Assembly: GCA_024277175.1 (NCBI GenBank)
Contig: JAJRVT010000439.1
Span: 1 to 49,755, forward strand
DNA: 49,755 bases
Reading direction: 5' to 3'
Origin: Chloroflexota bacterium
GTDB lineage: Bacteria > Chloroflexota > Anaerolineae > Caldilineales > Caldilineaceae
The notes under the pieces were generated by a model. It worked only from the letters and a program-made list of their open reading frames with translations. It searched no databases and was not told the DNA's origin. Positions within the stretch are counted from its first letter, which is position 1. Every line of letters starts with the position of its first letter. Both the position numbers and the translations under genes were made by a program. Below, in pieces: positions 18,138 to 35,315 of the stretch.

Positions 18138-19334
18138 ATGCAACCGAACCAGCAACCTTCTTCCCCCCAACCGAGTGTGAGTGAAGCGCCGGGCAGCCTG
18201 TTGGCCCTGGGCGTGGAGCAGCGGGTGATCCGCGCCTGTCTGCTGGAGCCGGTGGCCGGCGAGCATCGGCTGGCTGGCTGGATCAACGTGCAGCGGGATC
18301 CGACCAGCGAGCTGACGCAGCAGATCGAGATCGCATGCCAACGGCTGGGCCGACGTCTGGGCCGCAAGCTGTGGGACGATGGGCCGGGCGCTCCCTTCCT
18401 CCAGAGCGAGGACCCGGTCGCGTATCCGCCTCTGGACCAGGTGCTGGCCGCATCCAGCCCGCGCCCGCTGCTGCGCGTTTGGGTGGCGGGACTGAGCCGG
18501 AGCGGCGGCATGGCGGTGGCTGAAGCCGCGGTGACGGCCGCACCTGCGCGCGTGGTGGGGGAAACCGTGCTCACGGCCACGGTCAACGGCAAGCGGCTGG
18601 CCGATCAGCTTTCAGGCGCGCGGCCGGACGTGCTTATCATCACCGGCGGTTATGACGACCCAGACCCTGCGACCCATAAGCCCGTTTACCAACTGAGCAA
18701 GATGGTGGCTGGCGCGCTGGAGCGGCTGCCCCCGAGCCAGTACCCCCTGGTCATCTACGCCGGCGATCGCTGGCTGGCCGCGCCGACCGCGGACCTGCTG
18801 GCCGCGGTGGACGAGATCCTGCCGGTAGAAGTCATCGGCAACGTGCGCCCCACGTCCGAGACAGTGGTCCAAACGCCCCTGGCCATGGCGCTGACTCGGC
18901 ATCACTGGAAGCTCTGCCAGCGCATGCCCGGCTTCACCCGTCTGGGCCGCTGGATCACCCGGCCGGCCCGCATCGTGAGTATGGAGACGGCCTTTACTCA
19001 GAGCGTACGCGCGTGGCTGGCGGTGGAGCAGTTGGCGGAACTCCATGGGGTCTATTTTACGTCTGGCTGGCGACTGCACGTGTGGGCGCAGGAGGATGCT
19101 GAACAGGTGCGCATGCGTTACGCGCCCGCGCACACCCCACCCCAGGTCCTGGACGGCTGGCCGCCCGCGGAGCTGATCAGCGGATCGCCGCCCGCACACT
19201 TTCCCGAACTCTCCCCCCGCTGGCGAGATCACAGCGGGATGATGCCGGTGATTGCCACGGTGGGCCAGGCCGCGCCCAACGCCATGATGCAGGTGTTGCG
19301 GCAGGATTTGCTGGAGGCGGTTGATGTTCGGTGA
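18138..19334 (+). CDS. GlmL/MutL-like ASKHA-fold protein, degenerate
   Basis: 398 residues. The middle part matches the pattern of GlmL/MutL proteins of the glutamate-mutase system: VWVAGLSRSGGMAVAEAAVT, ARPDVLIITGGYDDPDP, YPLVIYAGDRWLAAPTADLL and LPVEVIGNVRPTSETVVQTP. The N-terminal phosphate-binding loop of ASKHA ATPases (usually DxGSTxTK) is replaced by ALGVEQRVIRACLLE, so ATP binding may be lost. No glutamate mutase or B12 gene is nearby. In this setting the protein may be a cytoplasmic partner of the membrane proteins upstream, in the way FtsA or PilM serve theirs; this is a guess. The start is uncertain. Confidence 0.65.
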   Translation: MQPNQQPSSPQPSVSEAPGSLLALGVEQRVIRACLLEPVAGEHRLAGWINVQRDPTSELTQQIEIACQRLGRRLGRKLWDDGPGAPFLQSEDPVAYPPLDQVLAASSPRPLLRVWVAGLSRSGGMAVAEAAVTAAPARVVGETVLTATVNGKRLADQLSGARPDVLIITGGYDDPDPATHKPVYQLSKMVAGALERLPPSQYPLVIYAGDRWLAAPTADLLAAVDEILPVEVIGNVRPTSETVVQTPLAMALTRHHWKLCQRMPGFTRLGRWITRPARIVSMETAFTQSVRAWLAVEQLAELHGVYFTSGWRLHVWAQEDAEQVRMRYAPAHTPPQVLDGWPPAELISGSPPAHFPELSPRWRDHSGMMPVIATVGQAAPNAMMQVLRQDLLEAVDVR

Positions 19335-21681: not shown

Positions 21682-22578
21682 ATGTCGTCGTGTTTTGCTT
21701 ATGTTCGTCCGACCCAATGGCTGCGCTTGGATGACGCCAGAAGCTTTGCCGACAGTGATAGCCGGCAAACGGACCAGTCGGAACGGACGGATGCAGCGCG
21801 GCTCGACAACGGCCAGATCCTCCTCCAGGTTCGAAATCTTTCCAAATCTTTTCGCGGCTTGCTGGCTTTGCAGGGGTATGATCTCACCCTCCGAGCCGGT
21901 GAGATTTTGGGCATTATTGGCCCGAACGGGGCAGGCAAAACCACCCTCTTTCATCTGCTAACGGGATTTCTCACGCCTACCACAGGAACGATCCATTTTC
22001 GGGGTGAAGACGTCACCAGCGCGCCGCCGCCGGTGATTGCCGAGATGGGACTGACACGCACGTTCCAGAACATCCGCCTGTTCGACAGTCTCAGCGTGCT
22101 CGACAACGTCATGGTCGCCCAACAACTCCACACGTCCTATGCCTTCTGGGAGACGATTATCGGTTGGCCCACGTTTTTGCGCAAAGAACGGAGTGTGCGT
22201 CAAGAGGCCCTCGATCTTCTGGCCCTGATGGGGTTGGCCGATCAGGCGAGGCGGCGGGCCGATGAGTTGCCCTACGGGGGGCAACGACGTCTGGAAATCG
22301 CCCGGGCTCTGGCGACGCGTCCGGCTGTGCTTCTTCTGGACGAGCCGGCGGCCGGTATGAATCCTCACGAGAGCGATCAACTGCATCAACTGATTCTCGA
22401 CCTGCGGCGGGAATTCGCCCTGACGATCGTGCTTGTCGAGCATGACATGCGGTTGGTGATGAATCTGTGCGAGCGCTTGCAGGTTCTCAATTACGGCGAG
22501 ATCATCGCTGAGGGCCTGCCCGAGGACATACGAAGACATCCTCGAGTCGTCGAGTCCTATCTGGGCGCCGCTCACTGA
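21682..22578 (+). CDS. livG: Branched-chain amino acid-type ABC transporter ATPase LivG
   Basis: 298 residues; one of two ATPases driving import through LivH-LivM. Walker A GPNGAGKTT, a Q-loop in LTRTFQNIRLFDSLSVLDNV (typical of LivG), the signature LPYGGQRRLEIARAL (YGGQ in place of SGGQ, usual for this subfamily), Walker B AVLLLDEPAAGMNP and the switch histidine in LVEHDMRLVMNLC are all present. About 48 extra residues precede the usual LivG start; the ATG at 21682 has a GAGGA site. The substrate could be branched-chain amino acids, amides or urea-like compounds; the downstream enzymes argue for something other than plain leucine. Confidence 0.95.
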   Translation: MSSCFAYVRPTQWLRLDDARSFADSDSRQTDQSERTDAARLDNGQILLQVRNLSKSFRGLLALQGYDLTLRAGEILGIIGPNGAGKTTLFHLLTGFLTPTTGTIHFRGEDVTSAPPPVIAEMGLTRTFQNIRLFDSLSVLDNVMVAQQLHTSYAFWETIIGWPTFLRKERSVRQEALDLLALMGLADQARRRADELPYGGQRRLEIARALATRPAVLLLDEPAAGMNPHESDQLHQLILDLRREFALTIVLVEHDMRLVMNLCERLQVLNYGEIIAEGLPEDIRRHPRVVESYLGAAH

Positions 22579-22670: not shown

Positions 22671-23375
22671 ATGCTGCGGCTGGAGAATGTCGAAGTTTTT
22701 TATGGGAATATCCGCGCGCTGAAAGGCGTTTCCTTCTCAGTGCGCGAAGGTGAACTGGTCACCCTGATCGGCTCCAATGGCGCGGGCAAGAGCACCACGC
22801 TCAACACCATCGTAGGCCTGCTCCATCCCCGGCAGGGAGCGATCCTGTACGAGGATGAGCCGATCCACCGCCTCTCGCCTTTTCAGATGATCCAGCGGGG
22901 CATTTCCCTCTGCCCTGAAGGACGCCGTATCTTCGGCAACCTGACGGTCGATGATAATCTGCGCATGGGCGCCATCCAGCGTCGGGATCCCGAAGGCGTT
23001 CGCCAGGATCGGGAATGGGTCTATGCGCTCTTCCCCGTGCTCGCAGAACGGCTACACCAGCTTGGAGGCACGCTGAGCGGCGGTGAACAACAAATGCTGG
23101 CCATCGGCCGTTCCCTGATGAGCCGCCCCCGGCTGCTTCTTATGGATGAACCCTCCCTGGGGCTGGCTCCTGTGCTGGTGCAGACCATCTTTCAGACGCT
23201 TCAGCAGTTGAAGGCCCAGGGGACCACCATTCTGCTGGTGGAGCAAAACGCTCATCAGGCGTTGGAAATCGCCGATCGGGGTTATATTCTGGAAACGGGA
23301 CGTATCATCCTGGGCGACGCAGCCGCGACCCTGCGCACCAATAAACTCGTCGTCCAGTCTTATCTAGGAGGCTGA
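22671..23375 (+). CDS. livF: Branched-chain amino acid-type ABC transporter ATPase LivF
   Basis: 234 residues, the normal LivF length. Walker A GSNGAGKST, the Q-loop region FQMIQRGISLCPEGRRIFGN (the CPEGRRIF motif is diagnostic for LivF), signature LSGGEQQMLAIGRSL, Walker B LLLMDEPSLGLAP and the switch histidine region replaced by LVEQNAHQALEIADRGY, also normal for LivF. The ATG has a GAGGAG site. It forms the ATPase pair with LivG and is followed five bases later by livH. Confidence 0.96.
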   Translation: MLRLENVEVFYGNIRALKGVSFSVREGELVTLIGSNGAGKSTTLNTIVGLLHPRQGAILYEDEPIHRLSPFQMIQRGISLCPEGRRIFGNLTVDDNLRMGAIQRRDPEGVRQDREWVYALFPVLAERLHQLGGTLSGGEQQMLAIGRSLMSRPRLLLMDEPSLGLAPVLVQTIFQTLQQLKAQGTTILLVEQNAHQALEIADRGYILETGRIILGDAAATLRTNKLVVQSYLGG

Positions 23376-23380
23376 TCGCC

Positions 23381-24277
23381 ATGTCGTTTTTCGAGTACGG
23401 CGTACAACAACTGATCAACGCGCTGAGCATCGGCAGTTTGTATGCGCTCATGGCGATCGGCCTGGCCATGGTCTTTGGCATCCTGCGTCTGATCAATTTC
23501 GCCCACGGCGATCTGATGATGGTGGCCAGCTATACGGCCCTGTTCTTGCTCATCGACGGGTTTCCTTTCCTTGGCGCGGCCATCGTCGCAGTGGTCGTCG
23601 CCGCGATCGCCGGCCTGGCCATGGAACGGGTGGCCTATCGTCCAATTCGGGGGGCGCCGGACGTGGCCATGCTGCTGACCTCCTTTGCAGTGACGATCGT
23701 CCTGGAGAATGTGGCTGTGCTCACTGTCGGCGCGCGCTCCCGGGCCTTTCCAGCCCCGCCCTTTCTGAGTACGGTCTTCACCCTGGGCAACCTCACGGTG
23801 TCAAGCGTTAACGTGGTGGCCATCGTCACCACCGCCATCCTTCTGGTGCTGTTGACCTTTTTCGTCAGGCGCACGGACACCGGCATCTCCATGCGCGCCG
23901 CCGCGGAGGACTTGGTGGCGGCGCAACTGATGGGCATCAACATCAACCGCGTCATCGCCTACGCCTTCGCCATCGGCTCCGGTCTGGCGGGCGTGGCGGG
24001 TCTGCTGTGGGCGGCGAAAGTGGGCAAAGTCGATCCCTTTATGGGCTTCTCCCCGGTGTTGAAGGCCTTCATCGCCGCGGTTATTGGCGGCTTCGGCACC
24101 ATTCCGGGCGCGGTGGTGGGCGGCTACGTATTGGGGTTCCTAGAGATTTTCCTGCAAGGAATTTTACCGGGTCAGAGCAGCGCCTACCGAGACGCTTTCG
24201 TGTTTGGCATTCTTATCCTGGTGCTCCTCATTCGGCCCAATGGGATTCTCGGCGTTCAGGAGCGAGAGGAAATCTGA
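23381..24277 (+). CDS. livH: Branched-chain amino acid-type ABC permease LivH
   Basis: 298 residues with about eight membrane helices. The N-terminal GSLYALMAIGLAMVFGILRL and INFAHGDLMMV stretches and the EAA-like loop RAAAEDLVAAQLMGININRV mark it as LivH. GGFGTIPGAVVGGYVLG follows. AGGAGG stands seven bases before the ATG. It forms the membrane channel with LivM, whose gene begins eight bases after its stop. Confidence 0.96.
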   Translation: MSFFEYGVQQLINALSIGSLYALMAIGLAMVFGILRLINFAHGDLMMVASYTALFLLIDGFPFLGAAIVAVVVAAIAGLAMERVAYRPIRGAPDVAMLLTSFAVTIVLENVAVLTVGARSRAFPAPPFLSTVFTLGNLTVSSVNVVAIVTTAILLVLLTFFVRRTDTGISMRAAAEDLVAAQLMGININRVIAYAFAIGSGLAGVAGLLWAAKVGKVDPFMGFSPVLKAFIAAVIGGFGTIPGAVVGGYVLGFLEIFLQGILPGQSSAYRDAFVFGILILVLLIRPNGILGVQEREEI

Positions 24278-26707: not shown

Positions 26708-26746
26708 CGGGGAAGTTCGACTTTACCCAGAAGCCGAACTTCCCCG
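26708..26746 (+). other. 12-bp inverted repeat between the binding-protein and peptidase genes
   Basis: 26708-26719 and 26735-26746 pair perfectly (CGGGGAAGTTCG/CGAACTTCCCCG) with a 15-base loop. No T-run follows. It could stabilise the highly needed binding-protein message relative to the genes downstream. Confidence 0.6.
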
Positions 26747-26757
26747 TGGGATGCGAC

Positions 26758-27924
26758 ATGACGACCAACCCTGACCGGCTCGACGAGATCGCCGCCTTTC
26801 TCCAGGAGAGACAATCCGCCTTCGTGGATGATCTGGCCACGCTTGTGAATGTGGATTGCGGCACAGGCAATAAAGCCGGTGTGGACCGGGTTGGCGATTG
26901 GTTGCAGGCGCGTCTGAACGCAATGAACGCCGCCGTCACCCGTTTTCCCCAGGAAGAGTACGGCGATTGCTGGCTGGGCGTCTGGCGGGGAAGCGGGCGA
27001 CAACGCGTTCTGCTGGTCGCACACCTGGACACGGTCTACCCTATCGGGACGGCGGCCGTTCGGCCCATGCGCATCGAGGGCGGCCGCGCCATCGGTCCCG
27101 GGGTTTCGGACATGAAAGGCGGACTGCTGGCCGGCCTCTACGCGGTGGCGGCCCTCCAGCGTATCCATTTCGACGACTTCGACGAGATCGCTCTCTTGGC
27201 GGTCAGTGACGAAGAAGAGGATTCGCCCGTTTCACAGGCGATCACAGCCGAGTTGGCCCGCCGCTTCGATGCGGTCTACGTGCTGGAGGCGGCCCGGGCC
27301 AACGGTGACATTGTGAGCGCACGCAAGGGGTGTGGCCAGTACGTCTTCACCGTAACGGTGGAGGACGCCCAGGCCGGCGGCGATCTGGACGATGACGTCA
27401 ACGCCATTCTGGCGTTGGCCCCCCGCATCATCGCCCTCCGGGACCTGAATGGATTGGCTCCTGGCGTGACCGTGAACCCGGGCTTGCTCGAAGGCGTGTC
27501 CGAACGCGCTTCGGTGATCATCGATGTACGCGTGGACGCGCCGGAGCAAGTCGCTTTATTGGATCAGGCCATGCATCGGATCGCCGCGATTCCGTCTCAC
27601 AGGCCGGGCGTACGCGTCAGCGTGGAAGGAGGGCTCACCATGCCGCCCATGCCTTACCGGCCGGCTATCGGTGTGCTGATCGAACGGGTGCAGTCCATCG
27701 CCCAACGTCTTGGCTTTCATGTCGGTCATACCTTCACTGGCGGCAGCTCGGACGGAAATTTCGTGGCGGCGACTGGCGCATTGGTCCTGGATGGGCTCGG
27801 TCCCATCGGCGGCCTGGACCACAGCCCCGACGAATATCTGGATTTGGATAGCATCAGACCTCGAACGGCCCTGTTAGCTGGCCTGATCATGGAGACGCCG
27901 CTCTATGAAACGCTCAAAGATTGA
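26758..27924 (+). CDS. M20-family metallopeptidase (carboxypeptidase G2/ArgE-like)
   Basis: 388 residues from the ATG at 26758; a GTG at 26746 would overlap the preceding hairpin. Two-zinc hydrolases of this family split terminal amino acids or N-acyl groups. Metal ligands are seen in LLVAHLDTVYP (His), GPGVSDMKGG (Asp), VSDEEEDSP (Glu pair) and GLDHSPDEYLD near the end. The lid-domain motif normally containing His-Ala-Gly (GxAxHAG) reads VEDAQAGGDLDDD, so the His that usually helps hold substrate across the dimer is Gln. Position in the liv operon points to hydrolysis of an imported peptide-like or acyl amino acid. No signal peptide, so it acts in the cytoplasm. Confidence 0.9.
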   Translation: MTTNPDRLDEIAAFLQERQSAFVDDLATLVNVDCGTGNKAGVDRVGDWLQARLNAMNAAVTRFPQEEYGDCWLGVWRGSGRQRVLLVAHLDTVYPIGTAAVRPMRIEGGRAIGPGVSDMKGGLLAGLYAVAALQRIHFDDFDEIALLAVSDEEEDSPVSQAITAELARRFDAVYVLEAARANGDIVSARKGCGQYVFTVTVEDAQAGGDLDDDVNAILALAPRIIALRDLNGLAPGVTVNPGLLEGVSERASVIIDVRVDAPEQVALLDQAMHRIAAIPSHRPGVRVSVEGGLTMPPMPYRPAIGVLIERVQSIAQRLGFHVGHTFTGGSSDGNFVAATGALVLDGLGPIGGLDHSPDEYLDLDSIRPRTALLAGLIMETPLYETLKD

Positions 27925-28020
27925 ACGCATGACCGGCATCGATTGAGCGGGTTGGAACGGTAAGCGTTTTCGAGTCTCTTGTAAAAGACTGTCTATCACT
28001 CAACGGAGGAGGCAACCTCA

Positions 28021-29370
28021 ATGGATCTTGCAGCTTTTGTGCAACGCGCTCGAGACAACGACGTGCGTTTCGTGCGTTTCCTCTATTGCGACAACGGCGG
28101 GACCATTCGCGGCAAGGCCATTCACATCGACAAACTGGCCGGCCGCATCCAGAATGGGATTGGCCTGACCGTCGCCATGCAGGCTATGAACATGCTCGAC
28201 CAACTCCAGTCTGTGGAGGGAATGGGGCCGGTGGGCGAAATTCGTCTGGTCCCGGATGTGGAGAGCTACGTGGAATTGCCTTACGCACCCCACAGCGCCT
28301 CTATGATGGCCGACATGATCGCCCTGGATCGCACGCCCTGGGCCGCCTGCCCGCGTTCGTTTCTGCGTCGCATGCTGGAGGAGGCTGCGACCGCCGGCGT
28401 CCATGTGCAGGCCGCGTTCGAGCCGGAGTGGACCCTGGCCCGCCAGACTGAGGACGGGTCCTTCGCCCCCGCGGATGAGAGCCTTTGTTTTAGCACGGTC
28501 GGCTGGGAAACGGGCGGCCCGGTGATCGATGCTATCGTAGCCGCCTTGGAGGCCCAGGGCATGCCGGTGGAGCAGTACTACCCGGAGTTGGGCCATGGGC
28601 AGCAGGAACTCTCCATCCGCCACGCCGCCGGCGTACGCGCCGCAGACAACCAACTCCGCTATCGGGACACCATGCGGGCCGTCGCTCGCGCCCACGGTTT
28701 CTTCGCCTCTCTGGCTCCCAAGCCTTTCCCTGACCAGGCGGGCAACGGCTGTCACATTCATGTGAGCCTCTGGGACGATGAGGGCAACAACCTGATGGCG
28801 GGTGATGGAAGTCCCCAGGGCGTAAGCCATTTCGGACGTCACTGGATCGCCGGGATCCTGGACCATCTGCCCGGCCTGGTCGCCATCACCTGCGCCAGCG
28901 TGAATTCCTACCGACGCTTGCAGCCCCAGAGTTGGAGTTCAGCGTACACCTGTTGGGGATTCGACAATCGGGAGGCGGCGGTTCGGATCGTTTCCGGACT
29001 CTGGGGTGAGACGACGCCCTCGATTCACTTCGAACTCAAAGCGTCAGATAACAGCAACAATCCCTACCTGGCGCTGGGCGCTCTCATCGCGGCCGGTATG
29101 GATGGCGTTCGCCGGGAACTGGACCCAGGGGAGCCGATGGCGGTCGACCCCTTCGACCTGGACGAAGCGGAGCGCACACGACGCAACATTCTCCGCCTGC
29201 CCGATAGCCTGGAGGCGGCCGTCGATGCCTTGGCTCAGGACACGGTGCTCACGAGCGCGCTCGGCGACCTGTTGGCCGACGCCTACATTACGGTCAAGCG
29301 CTCTGAGGCGGACGCCTTCGCCGCCCAGGACCTGGCCTTCGAACTCAAACACCACTTCTACAAATTTTAA
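28021..29370 (+). CDS. Glutamine synthetase-like gamma-glutamyl ligase (FluG C-terminal/PuuA type)
   Basis: 449 residues, with the GS catalytic fold: KPFPDQAGNGCHIHVSLW is the ATP-binding signature, NSYRRLQPQSW and WGFDNREAAVRIVSG follow, and FELKASDNSNNPYLALGAL is the glutamate-binding end. In true glutamine synthetase this last part reads E-x-R; here it is ELK, and the length and N-terminus fit the gamma-glutamyl-amide ligase groups (PuuA, FluG, IpuC) better. It would join glutamate, or a similar acid, to an amine with ATP. GGAGGAGG precedes the ATG. The amidohydrolase gene starts two bases after its stop. Confidence 0.9.
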   Translation: MDLAAFVQRARDNDVRFVRFLYCDNGGTIRGKAIHIDKLAGRIQNGIGLTVAMQAMNMLDQLQSVEGMGPVGEIRLVPDVESYVELPYAPHSASMMADMIALDRTPWAACPRSFLRRMLEEAATAGVHVQAAFEPEWTLARQTEDGSFAPADESLCFSTVGWETGGPVIDAIVAALEAQGMPVEQYYPELGHGQQELSIRHAAGVRAADNQLRYRDTMRAVARAHGFFASLAPKPFPDQAGNGCHIHVSLWDDEGNNLMAGDGSPQGVSHFGRHWIAGILDHLPGLVAITCASVNSYRRLQPQSWSSAYTCWGFDNREAAVRIVSGLWGETTPSIHFELKASDNSNNPYLALGALIAAGMDGVRRELDPGEPMAVDPFDLDEAERTRRNILRLPDSLEAAVDALAQDTVLTSALGDLLADAYITVKRSEADAFAAQDLAFELKHHFYKF

Positions 29371-29372
29371 TC

Positions 29373-30509
29373 ATGCGCAATCAAATCGCTGCAATTCCGG
29401 TTATCGATCACCACGCCCACGCGTTGATGCACCTGCCCCCGCAACTGACGCCGGCGCGTTTCGCCGCTTTCTTCAGCGAAGGCGGCGATGATGTCATCAG
29501 ACGCGAGCACGTGCAGAACAATCTCTTCTTCCGGCGCACCCTCCACGACCTGGCCCGGCTGTTGGGATGTGTAGCCACGCCGGAAGCGGTCCTGGCGGCT
29601 CGGGCCGACGTTCCCCTGGATGAGTACGCCCGCCGCCTGGTGCGAGACGCCAACGTCGAGGCCTTCCTTCTGGACTATCACTTCCAGAGCGACGACAATT
29701 ACTCTGTCCAGGAGATGACCGGCCTGACTGGGGCTGCTGTATACAGGGTGCTGCGCCTGGAAACGGTGCTGGAAGAGTTGCTGGCGGTCCACGACAACCT
29801 GGACGCGTTGCTCGACGTCTTCGCCCGGCGCATCCAGGAGGCCGCGCAGGAAGGCGTCGTCGCGTTAAAGAGCATCATCGCCTATCGCACCGGGCTGCGC
29901 ATCGGCGACCCGGATCGGAAGCAGGCCGAAGCCCATTGCCTGGCCCTCCACGAACAGGCGACTCGTCAAGGGGGCATCCGACTGACAGATAAACTGTTTC
30001 TGGATTTCTGTTTGCGCCGGGCGCTGGAATGGGCGGGCGATCTTCAGTTGCCTGTGCAGTTCCACACCGGTTTCGGCGACACAGACCTGGATATACGTGA
30101 GGTCAATCCCCTGCACATGCGTCCGCTCCTGGAGGACGATCGCTATCGAAAGACCCAATTCGTTCTGTTGCACGCCAGCTACCCCTATGTGCGGGAACTG
30201 GGCTATCTGACTTCGGTGTACGGTCACGTGTATGCGGACGTCTCGCTGGCCATCCCCTTTGCGGTCAGCGATTTCACCGCCATCTGGCGGCAGATCCTGG
30301 CCCTGGCTCCTTTCAGCAAAATCCTTTACGCCTCGGACGGCTTCAGCATTCCCGAACACTACTGGACGGGCGCCCACTGGGCCCGGGAAAGCCTGGCGCA
30401 TGTGTTGGAGGAACTGATCGATCTAGGTGCGCTGGATCAGAAGGAGGCAGTGGAGGCCGCGCGGGCGATCCTGTGTGAGAACGCTCGGCGTCTGTACCGG
30501 TTGCCGTGA
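29373..30509 (+). CDS. Amidohydrolase-2 family metal hydrolase (FluG N-terminal type)
   Basis: 378 residues. Metal-binding HxH at 14-16 (VIDHHAHAL), a Lys in GVVALKSIIAYRTGL, His in VQFHTGFGD and VLLHASYPYVREL, and the catalytic Asp in ILYASDGF match the amidohydrolase-2 (TIM-barrel) family. In fungal FluG this domain is fused in front of a glutamine-synthetase-like domain; here it follows it as a separate gene only two bases away. It likely hydrolyses or decarboxylates a ring or amide of the compound handled by the ligase. Last gene of the liv unit; a repeat block follows. Confidence 0.9.
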   Translation: MRNQIAAIPVIDHHAHALMHLPPQLTPARFAAFFSEGGDDVIRREHVQNNLFFRRTLHDLARLLGCVATPEAVLAARADVPLDEYARRLVRDANVEAFLLDYHFQSDDNYSVQEMTGLTGAAVYRVLRLETVLEELLAVHDNLDALLDVFARRIQEAAQEGVVALKSIIAYRTGLRIGDPDRKQAEAHCLALHEQATRQGGIRLTDKLFLDFCLRRALEWAGDLQLPVQFHTGFGDTDLDIREVNPLHMRPLLEDDRYRKTQFVLLHASYPYVRELGYLTSVYGHVYADVSLAIPFAVSDFTAIWRQILALAPFSKILYASDGFSIPEHYWTGAHWARESLAHVLEELIDLGALDQKEAVEAARAILCENARRLYRLP

Positions 30510-30630: not shown

Positions 30631-33600
30631 CTACCGCGTCACCACCGGCAAGAAGACCCGCTTGTCCCCGGACGAAGATCCGCCGCTGTTGGAGCCGCCC
30701 TGGGTGGGCGTTCCGTTGCCCCAGTCCTGGCTGTGGGTGAGCAGACCGCCGCCGCTGTTGGTTCCTTTCCAAGCCGCGGACTGGCCGCTGCTCGCCGTGG
30801 GGACGAAGTCATACTGGCCGGGCGCAAGCTCCCGCCAGACGCCCTTGGCTGCGGCTACGTCTGAACGCCCCACATCCTGATCCGCGCCCCACTGCACGAA
30901 GTCCACCATCGCGTCCGGGTTGGCGAAGTCAGCCGCGGTATAGAGGCCCAGGTCCGAGGCGCTATCATCCAGATCCGCGTGGGCCCGGACCACCAACCTC
31001 TCGCCGGGGCCGAGGGTGTAGTCGTTGCCCGAGAGCAGAGTCAGCGTGTTGATCTGGCCGTACTGGAAGCGGGCGCAGAGCCACCAGTTGGAGATGTCGA
31101 CGATGCTCGTCCCGGTGTTGATGATCTCCACCCAGTCGCCATTGGCGTCGCCCTTATAGTAGACCTCGTTGATGGCCACGTCCGTGTCAGAGCCGGGCGC
31201 GCCGGGTGTAGACGTGGACGTGGGCGTCGGCGTCATGGTGGGCGTCGGCGTCGGCCCGCCGGGGGTTGGCGTCATGGTGGGCGTAGGGGTGGGTCCGCCG
31301 GGCGTCACGGTCATGGTCGGGGTTGGCGTTGGACCGCTTGGCGTCGCAGTCGGCAATACGGTGGTCGATGTGGGCGTCGGCGTGGGCGTTCCGTTGACGG
31401 TGAGGGTGGCCGAATTGCTGGTCACCTCCCCGGCGCTGTTGGCGACGATGGCCCGATACTGGCCGGCGTTCCCTGGCTGCGCGTCGGCGATGCGCAGTTC
31501 CGGCTCGGTCTCGCCGGCCATGTCCACGCCGTCCTTCTGCCAGCGGATAGCGGGATCAGGCTCTCCGCTCACTTCCACGGAGAAGGTGGCATCCATGCCC
31601 ACGTCCACGGTCTTGCTCGCGGGGTGAGTGATGATCTGGGGCGCGACCGGCGGCTCGTTCACCAGGTAGACCTCGGTGGCGGTCTCGCTGTCCTCGAAGT
31701 TGTTGCGGAAGCACTTGGCCTTGACCGTGTGGGTTCCCACACCCAGCGCGAGCGGGCCTGTGTACTCGCTGGAAGCGCCCGTCGGCTCCGACCCATCGGT
31801 GGTGTAGCGGATGGTGGCGGTGGCAGTGGTTGTGGACAGGGTGACCGAGACGCTGCCGCTGTAGGTTCCGCCCGCGGCGTCCATGACCGGCGTCCCACAG
31901 CGGAGGATGTACTCCCGGGTGACCACGTTGCTGTTGGTCCAGCCAAGCTGGGTGGCGATGGCCTTGACCGTCATGGACTTGGAGACGGTGAAGCTGTAGG
32001 GCGAAGATTGGTTGTTGGCGTTGGAGTTGGGCATGGGATCTTCGCCGTTGGTGGTCACATAGACCTGCCGGATCTTGAAGGGCGGGTTGTTGTGGCCATC
32101 CACCGTCACCTGGAAGGTGTTGTCATAGGTCCCGCCGGGCGGCGTCACGGCCGGCTCCTCGATCTGGCCAGTGAGGCTGGGATCGAAGGTGCTGAAGGAG
32201 GTCTGGCTGATGACGCTGTCGACCATGCCCGCCTTCTTGGCCCGGGTGCGCAGGGAGTAATTGCCCCCGGCCGGCAAGGTGATGGGTCCGCTGTAGACCA
32301 GGTTGGGTTCGGCGGCGCTGTTGAGAATGTAGTAGATGGTCGCGCCCTGGGTGGCCGAAGTCAGCGTCACCAGGAGATCGCCGGTGTGGTTGCCGCCGTC
32401 CGGATCGATGACCGGCGCTTCCACCTGGGCTTGGTTGGTGGTGTAGACGGTGAAGTCAGCCTTGGCCGTCTCGCTGGGCGTCGATCCCGCCAGGAAGGCC
32501 TTGGCCCAGACCGAATGCTGGCCCACGCCCAGGTTGAAGGGACCCGTATACTCGGTCGAATAGATCGTTGGCTCCGCGCCGTTGGTGGTGTAGCGGATGG
32601 TCGCGCCCGGCGTGGCTACGGAAAGGCTCACCTGGAGAGAGCCGGTCCCTGTGCCGCCGTTGGGCGTGATCACGGGCGTGGCCACCTGCTGGGTGATGTT
32701 GAAAGTGGCGCTGGTCACCGGGCTGGGCGTGTAGCCGTCCAGGTAGACCCGGGCCTTGACCGTCGCGGACTGGGTCACCTCGATGGCCGTGGTGTAGAGG
32801 GGCGAGCTGGCCGTGGGCTCGCTGCCGTCGGTGGTGTAGCGGACCTCGGCCCCCAGGACCGTGGAGCCGATATAGACGGAGAGCGAGCCTGCAAAATCGC
32901 CGCTGCTCGGATAGATGGCGGGCGCGGGCAGCGTGGTCGGGCTGACCACGATGTCACCCGAATCGGCCACATCGCTCTTGTAGTAGCCGTCCTTGTAAGC
33001 CCTGGCCTTGATCCGGTGTTCGCCGGGCGCGAGGGTGATAGGCCCGGTGTACTCCGTGCCCGGATAGAAGAAGCTGGGCGAGCGTCCGTCAGTGCGGTAC
33101 CTGATGGTCGCACCCGATGTGGCGGTGGAGAGAGTCACCTGATGGGGCTGGTTGTAGTAGCCGCCGCCAGGGTTGATGGTGGGCGTCTCTACTTTTGGCG
33201 TCGAGCTCTGGTAGGTGGCTACGCTGGTCTCGCTGCTGTTGACCAGCCCGTTGGACACAGTGGATTGAAAGGCTTTGGCCTTGACCGTGGCCCCATAGTT
33301 CAGATAGACCGTATCCCCCTGTTCCGGGATGAAGATGAACGAATCGATGGTTGGTTCGCTGCCGTTCAGGGTGTAACGGATGTGGGTGTTACTGCTGTTC
33401 TGGCTCCCCGACCCGTAAGCGATGGTGACCTGCATGGGCATGGCGTGGCTGCCGGACGCGGGGCTGATGGTGGGCGCGGCCACGGTCGCGGGATTCACGC
33501 CCCATATCTGCTGGATGGCCCCTTTCAAATTCGGCAGAGGGCCGATGTTTTTGCTGCCGGTCTGGGCCGTGCCCGTGTCCTGGAGGATCTGCTTGATCTG

Positions 33601-35067
33601 GGCTGGCGTGGCGCCCGTTCCGTTCTTGGCCTTGTAGTTGGCCTGGACGATGGCCGCCGATCCCGCGACGATAGGGCTGGCCCCGGACGTGCCACCGAAG
33701 GCTTCGCGGTACCAGAGATTCTTCTGTTCGCTGTCGGGCGAACTCCCGCCGGGGTAGAGATCGCCGTAGCCGGCGCTGACGATACCATCGCCCCAGCCCT
33801 GGAGATCGACCGTGGAGCCATAGCTGCTGAAGCTCTCGGCCGAGCGCGCGTCGGCTCCCCACTTGGGCGATTTACCCGCGCCCACGATGATCGCGCCCGA
33901 ATCGTTGCCAGGTTTGAAGGGATAGTGGCCGCCGTTGCCCGTCTGGTAGTCGTTGCTGTCCAGGTCCTGGCTGCCGTTGCCCCCGGCCTCCACCACCACC
34001 ATGCCGTTGGCCACCGCGGTGACGATGTCATCGTACCAGGGCTCGTACCACTCCACGGGCACGAGACCGAACTGGCCGTTGCCGCTGGCGTTGGGGCCGC
34101 TGGTCTGCTGCTCGATGATGATGACATCGCCCGGGTCCAGCTTGTTGGCGCACTCGATGACGCCCGCGCCCACGTCATAGCCGCCGGTGGTGGTCTTGGC
34201 CGCGGCGAAGTAGTAGCTCGCGCCATAGGCGATGCCCTTGACGCCCCAGCCGTTGTCCCGCCCGCCCATGATGCTCAACACCGCGGTGCCGTGGTCATTG
34301 GAGAAGGGAGGATCCTTGGGGTCGCCCACAAAGGTGACCGCGGGCAGGTCCTTGTGGCTGGCGTTGTAGTCATACTCCACGTCACAGATGCGGATGCCGG
34401 CCCCGCTGCCGTTGACGCCGTCCCAGGCCCAGCGTGCGTCCACGCCCCTGGGCGCGGCGTCCAGATAACCCTGGTAGGCGTCCGTGACCCGGTTGCCGGT
34501 GATGTTGCCCGGATTGGCGTAGTCCCCCACCGGGGCCGCGGTCACGGCCACCGGTTTGGGGATGAGGTAGGCGGCTTCCACGGTGGAGAGCGCGGCGAAC
34601 GCCTGCACCGCGGTCACCGCGTCCTGACCCGGGAGCAACTCCAGGCGCATGTAGTTGTTGAGGTCGGGCAGGGGCTTGCCCGTGCGCGTCTCGCCGCTGC
34701 GGCGCAGCTCGTCCAGCGCGGCCTCGTCGGTGGTGTGGGAGCGGGTCCATGTTCCCCCGGCCGAGAGGGCCAGCAGCGCTTCCGCCTCCGCGGCTGCGAC
34801 GTCGGCGTTCACATTCTGGGGGACGCCCTCCCGCAGGCGCATGGTGACGTCGTCCCGGAACTTGATCTCAATGACGTCCGACTCGTAGCGGTCGTAGACG
34901 TTCGTCAGGTCCGCGGGCAGGTTGGTCTTGGTCGCAGGATCGAACTGGCTGAAGACGGGAAGATTGCCGCCGGCCAGCGCGGCCACGGCCAGCAGCGCGG
35001 CCAGGATCGCCAACGCCAGCCAGCGGGCGCGCACTGTTCTTCGTAATGTATCCATTGTCTGTTGCAT
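30631..35067 (-). CDS. Large secreted subtilisin-family (S8) protease with seven CHB/HEX-type repeats
   Basis: 1478 residues from the ATG at 35067 (GAGGAG site; the frame back to 35109 has none). Order: signal anchor 17-37; propeptide-like region; S8 catalytic domain with Asp229 (RICDVEYD), His259 (NDHGTAVLS), oxyanion Asn364 (AGGNGS) and Ser461 (GGTSGASP); seven repeats of about 75 residues (roughly 545-1130) of the chitobiase C-terminal type, each with IRYTTDGSEPT-like text; one Ig-like domain (WQKDGVDMAG, AGQYRAIVANSAG); a Thr-Pro-rich linker; a lamin-tail-like domain (INEVYYKGDANGDWVEIINT); and the tail KRVFLPVVTR. It probably works outside the cell or on its surface. A 69-residue gene precedes it on the same strand. 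Confidence 0.92.
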   Translation of the reverse strand: MQQTMDTLRRTVRARWLALAILAALLAVAALAGGNLPVFSQFDPATKTNLPADLTNVYDRYESDVIEIKFRDDVTMRLREGVPQNVNADVAAAEAEALLALSAGGTWTRSHTTDEAALDELRRSGETRTGKPLPDLNNYMRLELLPGQDAVTAVQAFAALSTVEAAYLIPKPVAVTAAPVGDYANPGNITGNRVTDAYQGYLDAAPRGVDARWAWDGVNGSGAGIRICDVEYDYNASHKDLPAVTFVGDPKDPPFSNDHGTAVLSIMGGRDNGWGVKGIAYGASYYFAAAKTTTGGYDVGAGVIECANKLDPGDVIIIEQQTSGPNASGNGQFGLVPVEWYEPWYDDIVTAVANGMVVVEAGGNGSQDLDSNDYQTGNGGHYPFKPGNDSGAIIVGAGKSPKWGADARSAESFSSYGSTVDLQGWGDGIVSAGYGDLYPGGSSPDSEQKNLWYREAFGGTSGASPIVAGSAAIVQANYKAKNGTGATPAQIKQILQDTGTAQTGSKNIGPLPNLKGAIQQIWGVNPATVAAPTISPASGSHAMPMQVTIAYGSGSQNSSNTHIRYTLNGSEPTIDSFIFIPEQGDTVYLNYGATVKAKAFQSTVSNGLVNSSETSVATYQSSTPKVETPTINPGGGYYNQPHQVTLSTATSGATIRYRTDGRSPSFFYPGTEYTGPITLAPGEHRIKARAYKDGYYKSDVADSGDIVVSPTTLPAPAIYPSSGDFAGSLSVYIGSTVLGAEVRYTTDGSEPTASSPLYTTAIEVTQSATVKARVYLDGYTPSPVTSATFNITQQVATPVITPNGGTGTGSLQVSLSVATPGATIRYTTNGAEPTIYSTEYTGPFNLGVGQHSVWAKAFLAGSTPSETAKADFTVYTTNQAQVEAPVIDPDGGNHTGDLLVTLTSATQGATIYYILNSAAEPNLVYSGPITLPAGGNYSLRTRAKKAGMVDSVISQTSFSTFDPSLTGQIEEPAVTPPGGTYDNTFQVTVDGHNNPPFKIRQVYVTTNGEDPMPNSNANNQSSPYSFTVSKSMTVKAIATQLGWTNSNVVTREYILRCGTPVMDAAGGTYSGSVSVTLSTTTATATIRYTTDGSEPTGASSEYTGPLALGVGTHTVKAKCFRNNFEDSETATEVYLVNEPPVAPQIITHPASKTVDVGMDATFSVEVSGEPDPAIRWQKDGVDMAGETEPELRIADAQPGNAGQYRAIVANSAGEVTSNSATLTVNGTPTPTPTSTTVLPTATPSGPTPTPTMTVTPGGPTPTPTMTPTPGGPTPTPTMTPTPTSTSTPGAPGSDTDVAINEVYYKGDANGDWVEIINTGTSIVDISNWWLCARFQYGQINTLTLLSGNDYTLGPGERLVVRAHADLDDSASDLGLYTAADFANPDAMVDFVQWGADQDVGRSDVAAAKGVWRELAPGQYDFVPTASSGQSAAWKGTNSGGGLLTHSQDWGNGTPTQGGSNSGGSSSGDKRVFLPVVTR

Positions 35068-35105
35068 TGTGGTTCTCCTCTCCTTGGCCCTGTCTACAGG
35101 CCTGC

Positions 35106-35315
35106 TCAATCAGATTGCGCCTCTCGCTCGCCCTGGGTCCGCTGTCTCTGGATGGTCTGCTGTAGAATGGCCTCGATCTGCTTCAGATCGGTGAAATAGC
35201 GAATCTGGCCTGTGTCCACCCGGTGGAGGGAGCCGCGCAGATCGAAGTCGTCTGCCGTCATCGGATGAGGCTCTTCCCAGATGCGCAGGACGAAAGCCAG
35301 CTTCAGTTGGGGCAC
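35106..35315 (-). CDS. Small conserved-looking protein upstream of the subtilase
   Basis: 69 residues starting with GTG at 35315; GGAGGTGATCT just upstream is a nearly ideal ribosome site and decides the start. The N-terminus KLAFVLRIWEE, then LRGSLHRVDTGQIRYFTDL, has the feel of a small domain seen, from memory, in other Chloroflexota as an F-x-L-R-x-W...RGSxxHVxSG...F pattern. Its stop lies 38 bases before the subtilase ATG, so the two are probably co-transcribed. Function unknown; it may regulate or assist its neighbour. Confidence 0.7.
   Translation of the reverse strand: MPQLKLAFVLRIWEEPHPMTADDFDLRGSLHRVDTGQIRYFTDLKQIEAILQQTIQRQRTQGEREAQSD

Follow-up and report, generated by a model that had tools for sequence, protein, structure and literature searches.

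An operon with a FluG-type ligase–amidohydrolase pair and a Liv-type importer in Chloroflexota

Why do a glutamine-synthetase-fold ligase and an amidohydrolase, the two enzyme types united in the fungal protein FluG, follow a complete Liv-type importer in one operon? The operon is located in a Chloroflexota genome (assembly GCA_024277175.1, here G000; 440 contigs, nearly 90% complete), at positions 21682–30509 of contig JAJRVT010000439.1. The whole stretch analysed, 49,755 nucleotides, is called the window. Eight intact genes lie here on the plus strand: LivG, LivF, LivH, LivM, LivK, an M20 hydrolase, the ligase, and the amidohydrolase. The original prediction regarded the two enzymes as a split FluG, acting with the importer and the M20 hydrolase on one imported compound. 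Gene content, linkage, clade membership, and residue changes can be observed directly. What they point to, with reasonable but far from complete confidence, is a catabolic route in which an imported amino compound is gamma-glutamylated, comparable to the use of polyamines by GlnA3-SCO6961 of Streptomyces coelicolor.

The ligase–amidohydrolase pair

The genes of the operon are as follows.

21682..22578, plus strand: LivG-type ABC (ATP-binding cassette) ATPase; Pfam ABC_tran 107 bits and BCA_ABC_TP_C; best NCBIfam model LivG, 288 bits (cut-off 362)
22671..23375, plus strand: LivF-type ABC ATPase; ABC_tran 110 bits; LivF 273 bits (cut-off 441)
23381..24277, plus strand: LivH-type permease; BPD_transp_2 145 bits
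24277..25374, plus strand: LivM-type permease; BPD_transp_2 143 bits
25430..26677, plus strand: LivK-type binding protein; Peripla_BP_6 234 bits; ligase-linked LivK clade, Asp78
26746..27924 (open reading frame), plus strand: M20 metallohydrolase, carboxypeptidase G2-like; Pfam Peptidase_M20 86.5 bits; 1cg2, E 5e-31
28021..29370, plus strand: glutamine-synthetase-fold ligase of the PA5508/amidohydrolase-linked (FluG-type) clade; Gln-synt_C 322 bits, Gln-synt_N_2 105 bits
29373..30509, plus strand: amidohydrolase of 2qpx (LSEI_0440) type; Amidohydro_2 84.7 bits

The real start of LivG is probably downstream of 21682, and the start codon of the M20 gene is likely the ATG at 26758. LivK, which starts with MKRIGS and contains the lipobox LLVSGC, is probably a lipoprotein. 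All five subunits of the importer (LivGFHMK) are present on the strand of the three enzyme genes, as had been predicted from the sequence.

The best solved relative of the window ligase is PA5508 (4hpp). In a tree of 97 rows, the ligase belongs to an amidohydrolase-linked clade (81 rows; support 98 in the Shimodaira–Hasegawa-like approximate likelihood ratio test, SH-aLRT) together with PA5508 and an amidohydrolase-adjacent ligase of Streptomyces. Other members come from Chloroflexota, Cyanobacteriota, Deinococcota, haloarchaea, and further groups. GlnA, GlnT, E. coli PuuA, and IpuC are placed outside. The exact positions of PA5508 and the Streptomyces ligase are uncertain because the tree was built by a quick search and these two are among its several long branches. 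In a study from 2024, the branch of PA5508 and GlnA3 adjoins the PuuA/IpuC group and is not within it (PMC11335346).

Gamma-glutamyl ligases that make no glutamine are recognized in the literature by their lack of Asp50 and Glu327 (PMC5403932, PMC8394153). Among 84 clade rows (glutamine synthetase numbering), Glu327 is replaced by Trp in all, the window ligase included, and position 50 is never Asp: it is T, A, S, or V in 84/84, and T in the window ligase. The metal residues and most of the glutamate/ATP residues are retained in the clade. E131, E212, E220, H269, R321, R344, and E357 are invariant (84/84), E129 is seen in 83/84, and Arg359 is Lys in 78/84. The window ligase keeps the metal ligands E129, E131, E212, E220, H269, and E357. 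It is below the cut-off of the GlnA model TIGR00653 (266 vs 429 bits), to which the GlnA of G000 itself, on contig C211, scores 525 bits. Its best NCBIfam match is gamma-glutamylputrescine synthetase NF045547 with 521.9 bits, under the equivalog cut-off of 650; for comparison, E. coli PuuA scores 199 and the GlnA of G000 337 bits, and the haloarchaeal ligases of the same tree near an amidohydrolase of the same type pass it (672–705). Tree, residues, and NCBIfam scores rule out a true GlnA. The window ligase can be considered a probable gamma-glutamyl ligase that would accept an amine, not ammonia.

Other ligases were also seen. Contig C211 of G000 (locus L200) carries two glutamine synthetase genes side by side, at least one of which scores as true GlnA. 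On contig C328 (L199:1699-3903), another non-GlnA ligase gene immediately precedes a Peptidase_C26 gene, and the two form a separate PuuA-PuuD-like pair. A second divergent ligase (~30% identity) is just upstream of the FluG-type ligase at L007:1-1311, L014:5139-6587, and L048:6974-8389; in L048 its Glu327 is Phe.

For the amidohydrolase, 2qpx is the sole solved sequence relative. Judging from strain and description, 2qpx appears to be the L. paracasei/casei protein LSEI_0440 (PMC6478659). The AlphaFold2 model has a mean pLDDT (predicted local distance difference test) of 94.6, and Foldseek ranks 2qpx first (template modelling score, TM, 0.89/0.90), followed by a Planctomyces amidohydrolase (0.74) and uronate isomerases (~0.66). 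H14, H16, K166, H231, H267, and D322 are common to 2qpx and conserved in at least 130 of 134 sequences, which is consistent with a putative working metal site.

As published in 2019, the bacterial PA5508 (ligase half) and LSEI_0440 (amidohydrolase half) together functionally replaced FluG in Aspergillus, so two separate bacterial genes correspond to FluG (PMC6478659). Because of this replacement, the comparison with FluG rests on function as well as sequence. It is drawn through the two bacterial replacer proteins. The two window genes match the two FluG halves, the ligase by its PA5508 clade and the amidohydrolase by its likeness to 2qpx, and the ligase is outside GlnA; to this extent the original prediction holds. 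Its gene arrangement is also correct: 29370 is the last base of the ligase stop codon and 29373 the first of the amidohydrolase ATG, leaving a gap of two bases, in reversed order relative to FluG, whose amidohydrolase domain is N-terminal and ligase domain C-terminal (PMC6478659). The wording "split FluG", however, implies a broken fusion. The window pair is not the fused bifunctional FluG (one polypeptide, amidohydrolase first) but two open reading frames with the ligase first. No fused frame was found among the loci examined, and in bacteria the two normally occur as separate neighbouring genes.

Linkage to the importer and to accessory genes

The linkage was analyzed in 301 genomes of the phylum (thresholds: ligase E<=1e-85, amidohydrolase E<=1e-20, LivK E<=1e-60). 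The ligase is found in 52 genomes and the amidohydrolase in 68. They occur together in 44, against 11.7 expected (Fisher p 3e-27, uncorrected for kinship), and are within 5 kb of each other in 23 of these 44. Close LivK homologues are seen in 16 of the 301 genomes, and 15 of the 16 have such a ligase within ~6 kb, so the predicted tie of the enzymes to the transporter is borne out in relatives. The exception is G292, where LivK has no ligase of this type nearby. When the amidohydrolase was the sole criterion for picking loci, and 6 kb or more of upstream sequence was required, LivK of the linked type was found in 12/18 loci of Chloroflexota/Thermomicrobiota and in 0/34 from other phyla. In Allomeiothermus silvanus, a Liv system is also beside the pair. 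A limited literature search found no prior description of a Liv linkage with a gamma-glutamyl ligase in Chloroflexi.

Loci L160 and L161 contain LivK and the ligase and no amidohydrolase; in L161 the ligase is followed by a nitroreductase-family gene and a response regulator. L166 seems at first to carry a LivM-ligase fusion. This reading was rejected, since LivM proves to be a feature of its own and Pfam gives no match to residues 1–390 of the open frame.

In the LivK tree, a single clade (support 100) unites the linked proteins and sets them apart from 20 unlinked paralogues, E. coli LivJ/LivK, and Atu2422. The sample was partly picked by similarity to the window LivK, and the purity of the clade comes partly from this selection; the clade also takes in the unlinked G292 protein. 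The window LivK is not LivJ/LivK proper (PRK15404, 147.6 bits vs cut-off 477). It groups with Thermoflexus, whereas L013 and the other loci with which the window ligase groups have another LivK type. These different groupings suggest that parts may have been exchanged while the linkage was kept.

Residues were counted in E. coli LivK numbering among 31 linked-type proteins, including G292 and one duplicate of the G115 locus. Ser/Thr79 (28/31), Thr102 (29/31), Asp226 (31/31), and Gly227 (29/31) are conserved. Asp78 is seen in 31/31 and in 0/20 of the unlinked paralogues, which come from four genomes. Residue 78 is presumably near the side-chain pocket. The pattern can be read as fitting a ligand that would be an amino compound and would bear one more group, polar or cationic; common ancestry of the clade weakens the Asp78 test. 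It can be tentatively speculated, with more doubt than confidence, that the natural FluG-type substrate is sensed and imported through the linked LivK subfamily, which would hold its amino-acid end by Ser79/Thr102/Asp226 and its second amine at Asp78. If so, knowing the LivK ligand would reveal on what class of substrate bacterial FluG-type pairs act and leave fewer candidates for the fungal FluG compound.

The metal and catalytic residues of the M20 hydrolase align with those of 1cg2, and its score is under the cut-off of the carboxypeptidase G2/glutamate carboxypeptidase model NF004788 (244.5 vs 349 bits). The M20 gene is in the same unit and on the same strand at the window, as predicted, but a general link does not exist: the subfamily occurs in 114/301 genomes and, among the hits checked, is near the ligase or amidohydrolase only in G000 and G253. 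It is also beside the pair in loci L013, L032, and L006. M20 as a core part of the unit was rejected, being rarely linked to the pair; the gene is an occasional accessory.

Other accessory genes near the pair are C26 hydrolases (L023, L033, L054, L048, L153, L154), class III aminotransferases (L157, L160, L161, L164, L166, L167, haloarchaea), formamidases/acetamidases (L061, L068, L166, L168, L176), and a formylglutamate-type hydrolase (PF05013; L178). SCO1615, a PF05013 protein, is a proposed gamma-glutamylglycine amidohydrolase (PMC9397018). L061 and L068 contain ethanolamine ammonia-lyase genes in addition. These genes point to amine breakdown, and the substrate possibly differs between loci. 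G000 holds C26 and class III aminotransferase genes elsewhere in the genome. No locus has two among M20, C26, formamidase, and formylglutamate hydrolase; the numbers are too small to give mutual exclusion a meaning, and this idea was dropped. L061:1265-15262 and L068 show one same-strand run of a peptide-type importer, formamidase/acetamidase, ligase, two amidohydrolases, an alpha/beta hydrolase, and EutB-EutC.

The operon is considered to end with the amidohydrolase because the next long open reading frame, 30631–35109, is on the opposite strand. This convergent frame encodes a protein of 1492 residues that starts like a subtilisin and contains repeated units of beta type. Upstream of the operon, 18138–19334 encodes a MutL/GlmL-like protein (PF13941, 51 bits), with a membrane-protein frame in between. 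A scan for promoters and terminators gave signals only at chance level.

The proposed pathway and alternative explanations

We infer import of an amino compound, its gamma-glutamylation, and later release of glutamate by the M20 hydrolase; the whole operon would serve to scavenge nitrogen or carbon. Uptake of the compound would fall to the Liv-type importer, with its binding protein of a dedicated subfamily. Judging from clade and residues, the ligase would use ATP to couple an amine, rather than ammonia, to the gamma-carboxyl of glutamate, and the acceptor is most likely a diamine, a polyamine, a similar primary amine, or an amino acid bearing one. The substrate of the amidohydrolase would be either the glutamylated compound or an intermediate further along. 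This step is putative and the least certain one, and the opening of the compound, as proposed originally, is likewise putative. A glutamate-releasing amidase would finish the route, probably M20 here and C26 (PuuD-like) or the formylglutamate-type hydrolase in relatives. Where present, the class III aminotransferase would take the leftover omega-amino acid. Import and glutamate tagging, both proposed originally, are in keeping with the enzyme and transporter families.

Some facts weigh against this pathway. No PuuB, PuuC, PuuD, or PuuE homologue is detected by tblastn in the 49.8-kb window, and with no Puu-type oxidase or aldehyde dehydrogenase there, a full Puu-like route needs genes elsewhere. 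Liv-type binding proteins usually take amino acids, and the Ser79, Thr102, and acidic 226 retained in LivK are ill-suited to a plain polyamine. A minority of loci have C26 or M20 neighbours, and the amidohydrolase activity in the pathway is putative.

The pair might instead build a gamma-glutamyl metabolite or signal, a role also proposed for FluG, from a precursor supplied by the importer. FluG acts via a gamma-glutamylated compound (PMC6478659), theanine is made in tea by the plant FluG-like theanine synthetase CsTSI (PMC9909507), and cyanobacterial ligase–amidohydrolase pairs stand alone, without conserved neighbours. Biosynthesis is nevertheless unlikely, as the importer, the C26 and formylglutamate-type hydrolases, and the aminotransferases in related loci indicate uptake and breakdown. 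Similarly improbable is an importer for a peptide or acylated amino acid, which M20 would cut and whose released amine the ligase would handle. M20 is present at the window, L013, L032, L006, and L167, other M20s are in L164 and haloarchaeal loci, and peptide-type SBP_bac_5 importers are near the pair in L061, L170, and L180. However, M20 is seldom beside the ligase, and the window importer is of Liv type with amino-acid-type pocket residues.

An ordinary branched-chain amino acid importer could also be beside an unrelated enzyme pair by chance. G000 has 17 Peripla_BP_6 proteins, which in one genome gives any particular gene ~6–7% odds of having some Liv system no more than 10 kb away. The linkage data contradict such an accident, which can hardly be credited: LivK is tied to the ligase in 15/16, the linked-type counts are 12/18 against 0/34, and the LivK clade has support 100.

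Comparison with known systems

The FluG metabolite, made or consumed, has been sought since the first description of the gene in 1994. The binding protein, consistently tied to the bacterial pair, is a handle on the FluG-type substrate and opens it to a simple ligand-binding experiment. The reach of gamma-glutamylation would also be extended from actinobacterial, proteobacterial, and haloarchaeal cases to a phylum rich in uncultured members.

GlnA3 (SCO6962) of Streptomyces coelicolor is a gamma-glutamylpolyamine synthetase, and the downstream SCO6961 is a polyamine-induced amidohydrolase 2 (PMC5403932). GlnA3 proteins of Streptomyces and M. tuberculosis glutamylate polyamines (PMC5403932, PMC11841054). 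The order of ligase and amidohydrolase 2 genes is the same as in the window, and GlnA3 also lacks Asp50 and Glu327 (PMC5403932). Unlike in the window, neither a Liv importer nor M20 has been described beside GlnA3-SCO6961. We take Rv1879 to be the amidohydrolase partner of Rv1878 in M. tuberculosis.

GlnA-2 of Haloferax mediterranei was assayed as a glutamate-putrescine ligase (PMC8394153), and NF045547 was apparently built around this enzyme. The window ligase shares it as best NCBIfam match, and haloarchaeal members are likewise near the same-type amidohydrolase, whereas the window ligase falls below the cut-off (522 vs 650). As in the E. coli Puu pathway, an amine would be tagged with glutamate and the tag removed later; PuuA, however, is outside the clade, with 199 bits on NF045547, and its PuuB/PuuC/PuuD/PuuE partners are absent from the window. 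The importer resembles Liv/HAAT systems in all five subunits, and the window LivK keeps the backbone-binding residues of LivJ/LivK, with Glu226 as Asp, yet belongs to a separate clade marked by Asp78 (31/31 linked, 0/20 unlinked). With FluG of Aspergillus nidulans the operon shares both enzyme types, whose nearest solved relatives (4hpp, 2qpx) are the replacers of the FluG halves; unlike FluG, it has them as two frames, ligase first and two bases apart, with an importer and an M20 hydrolase.

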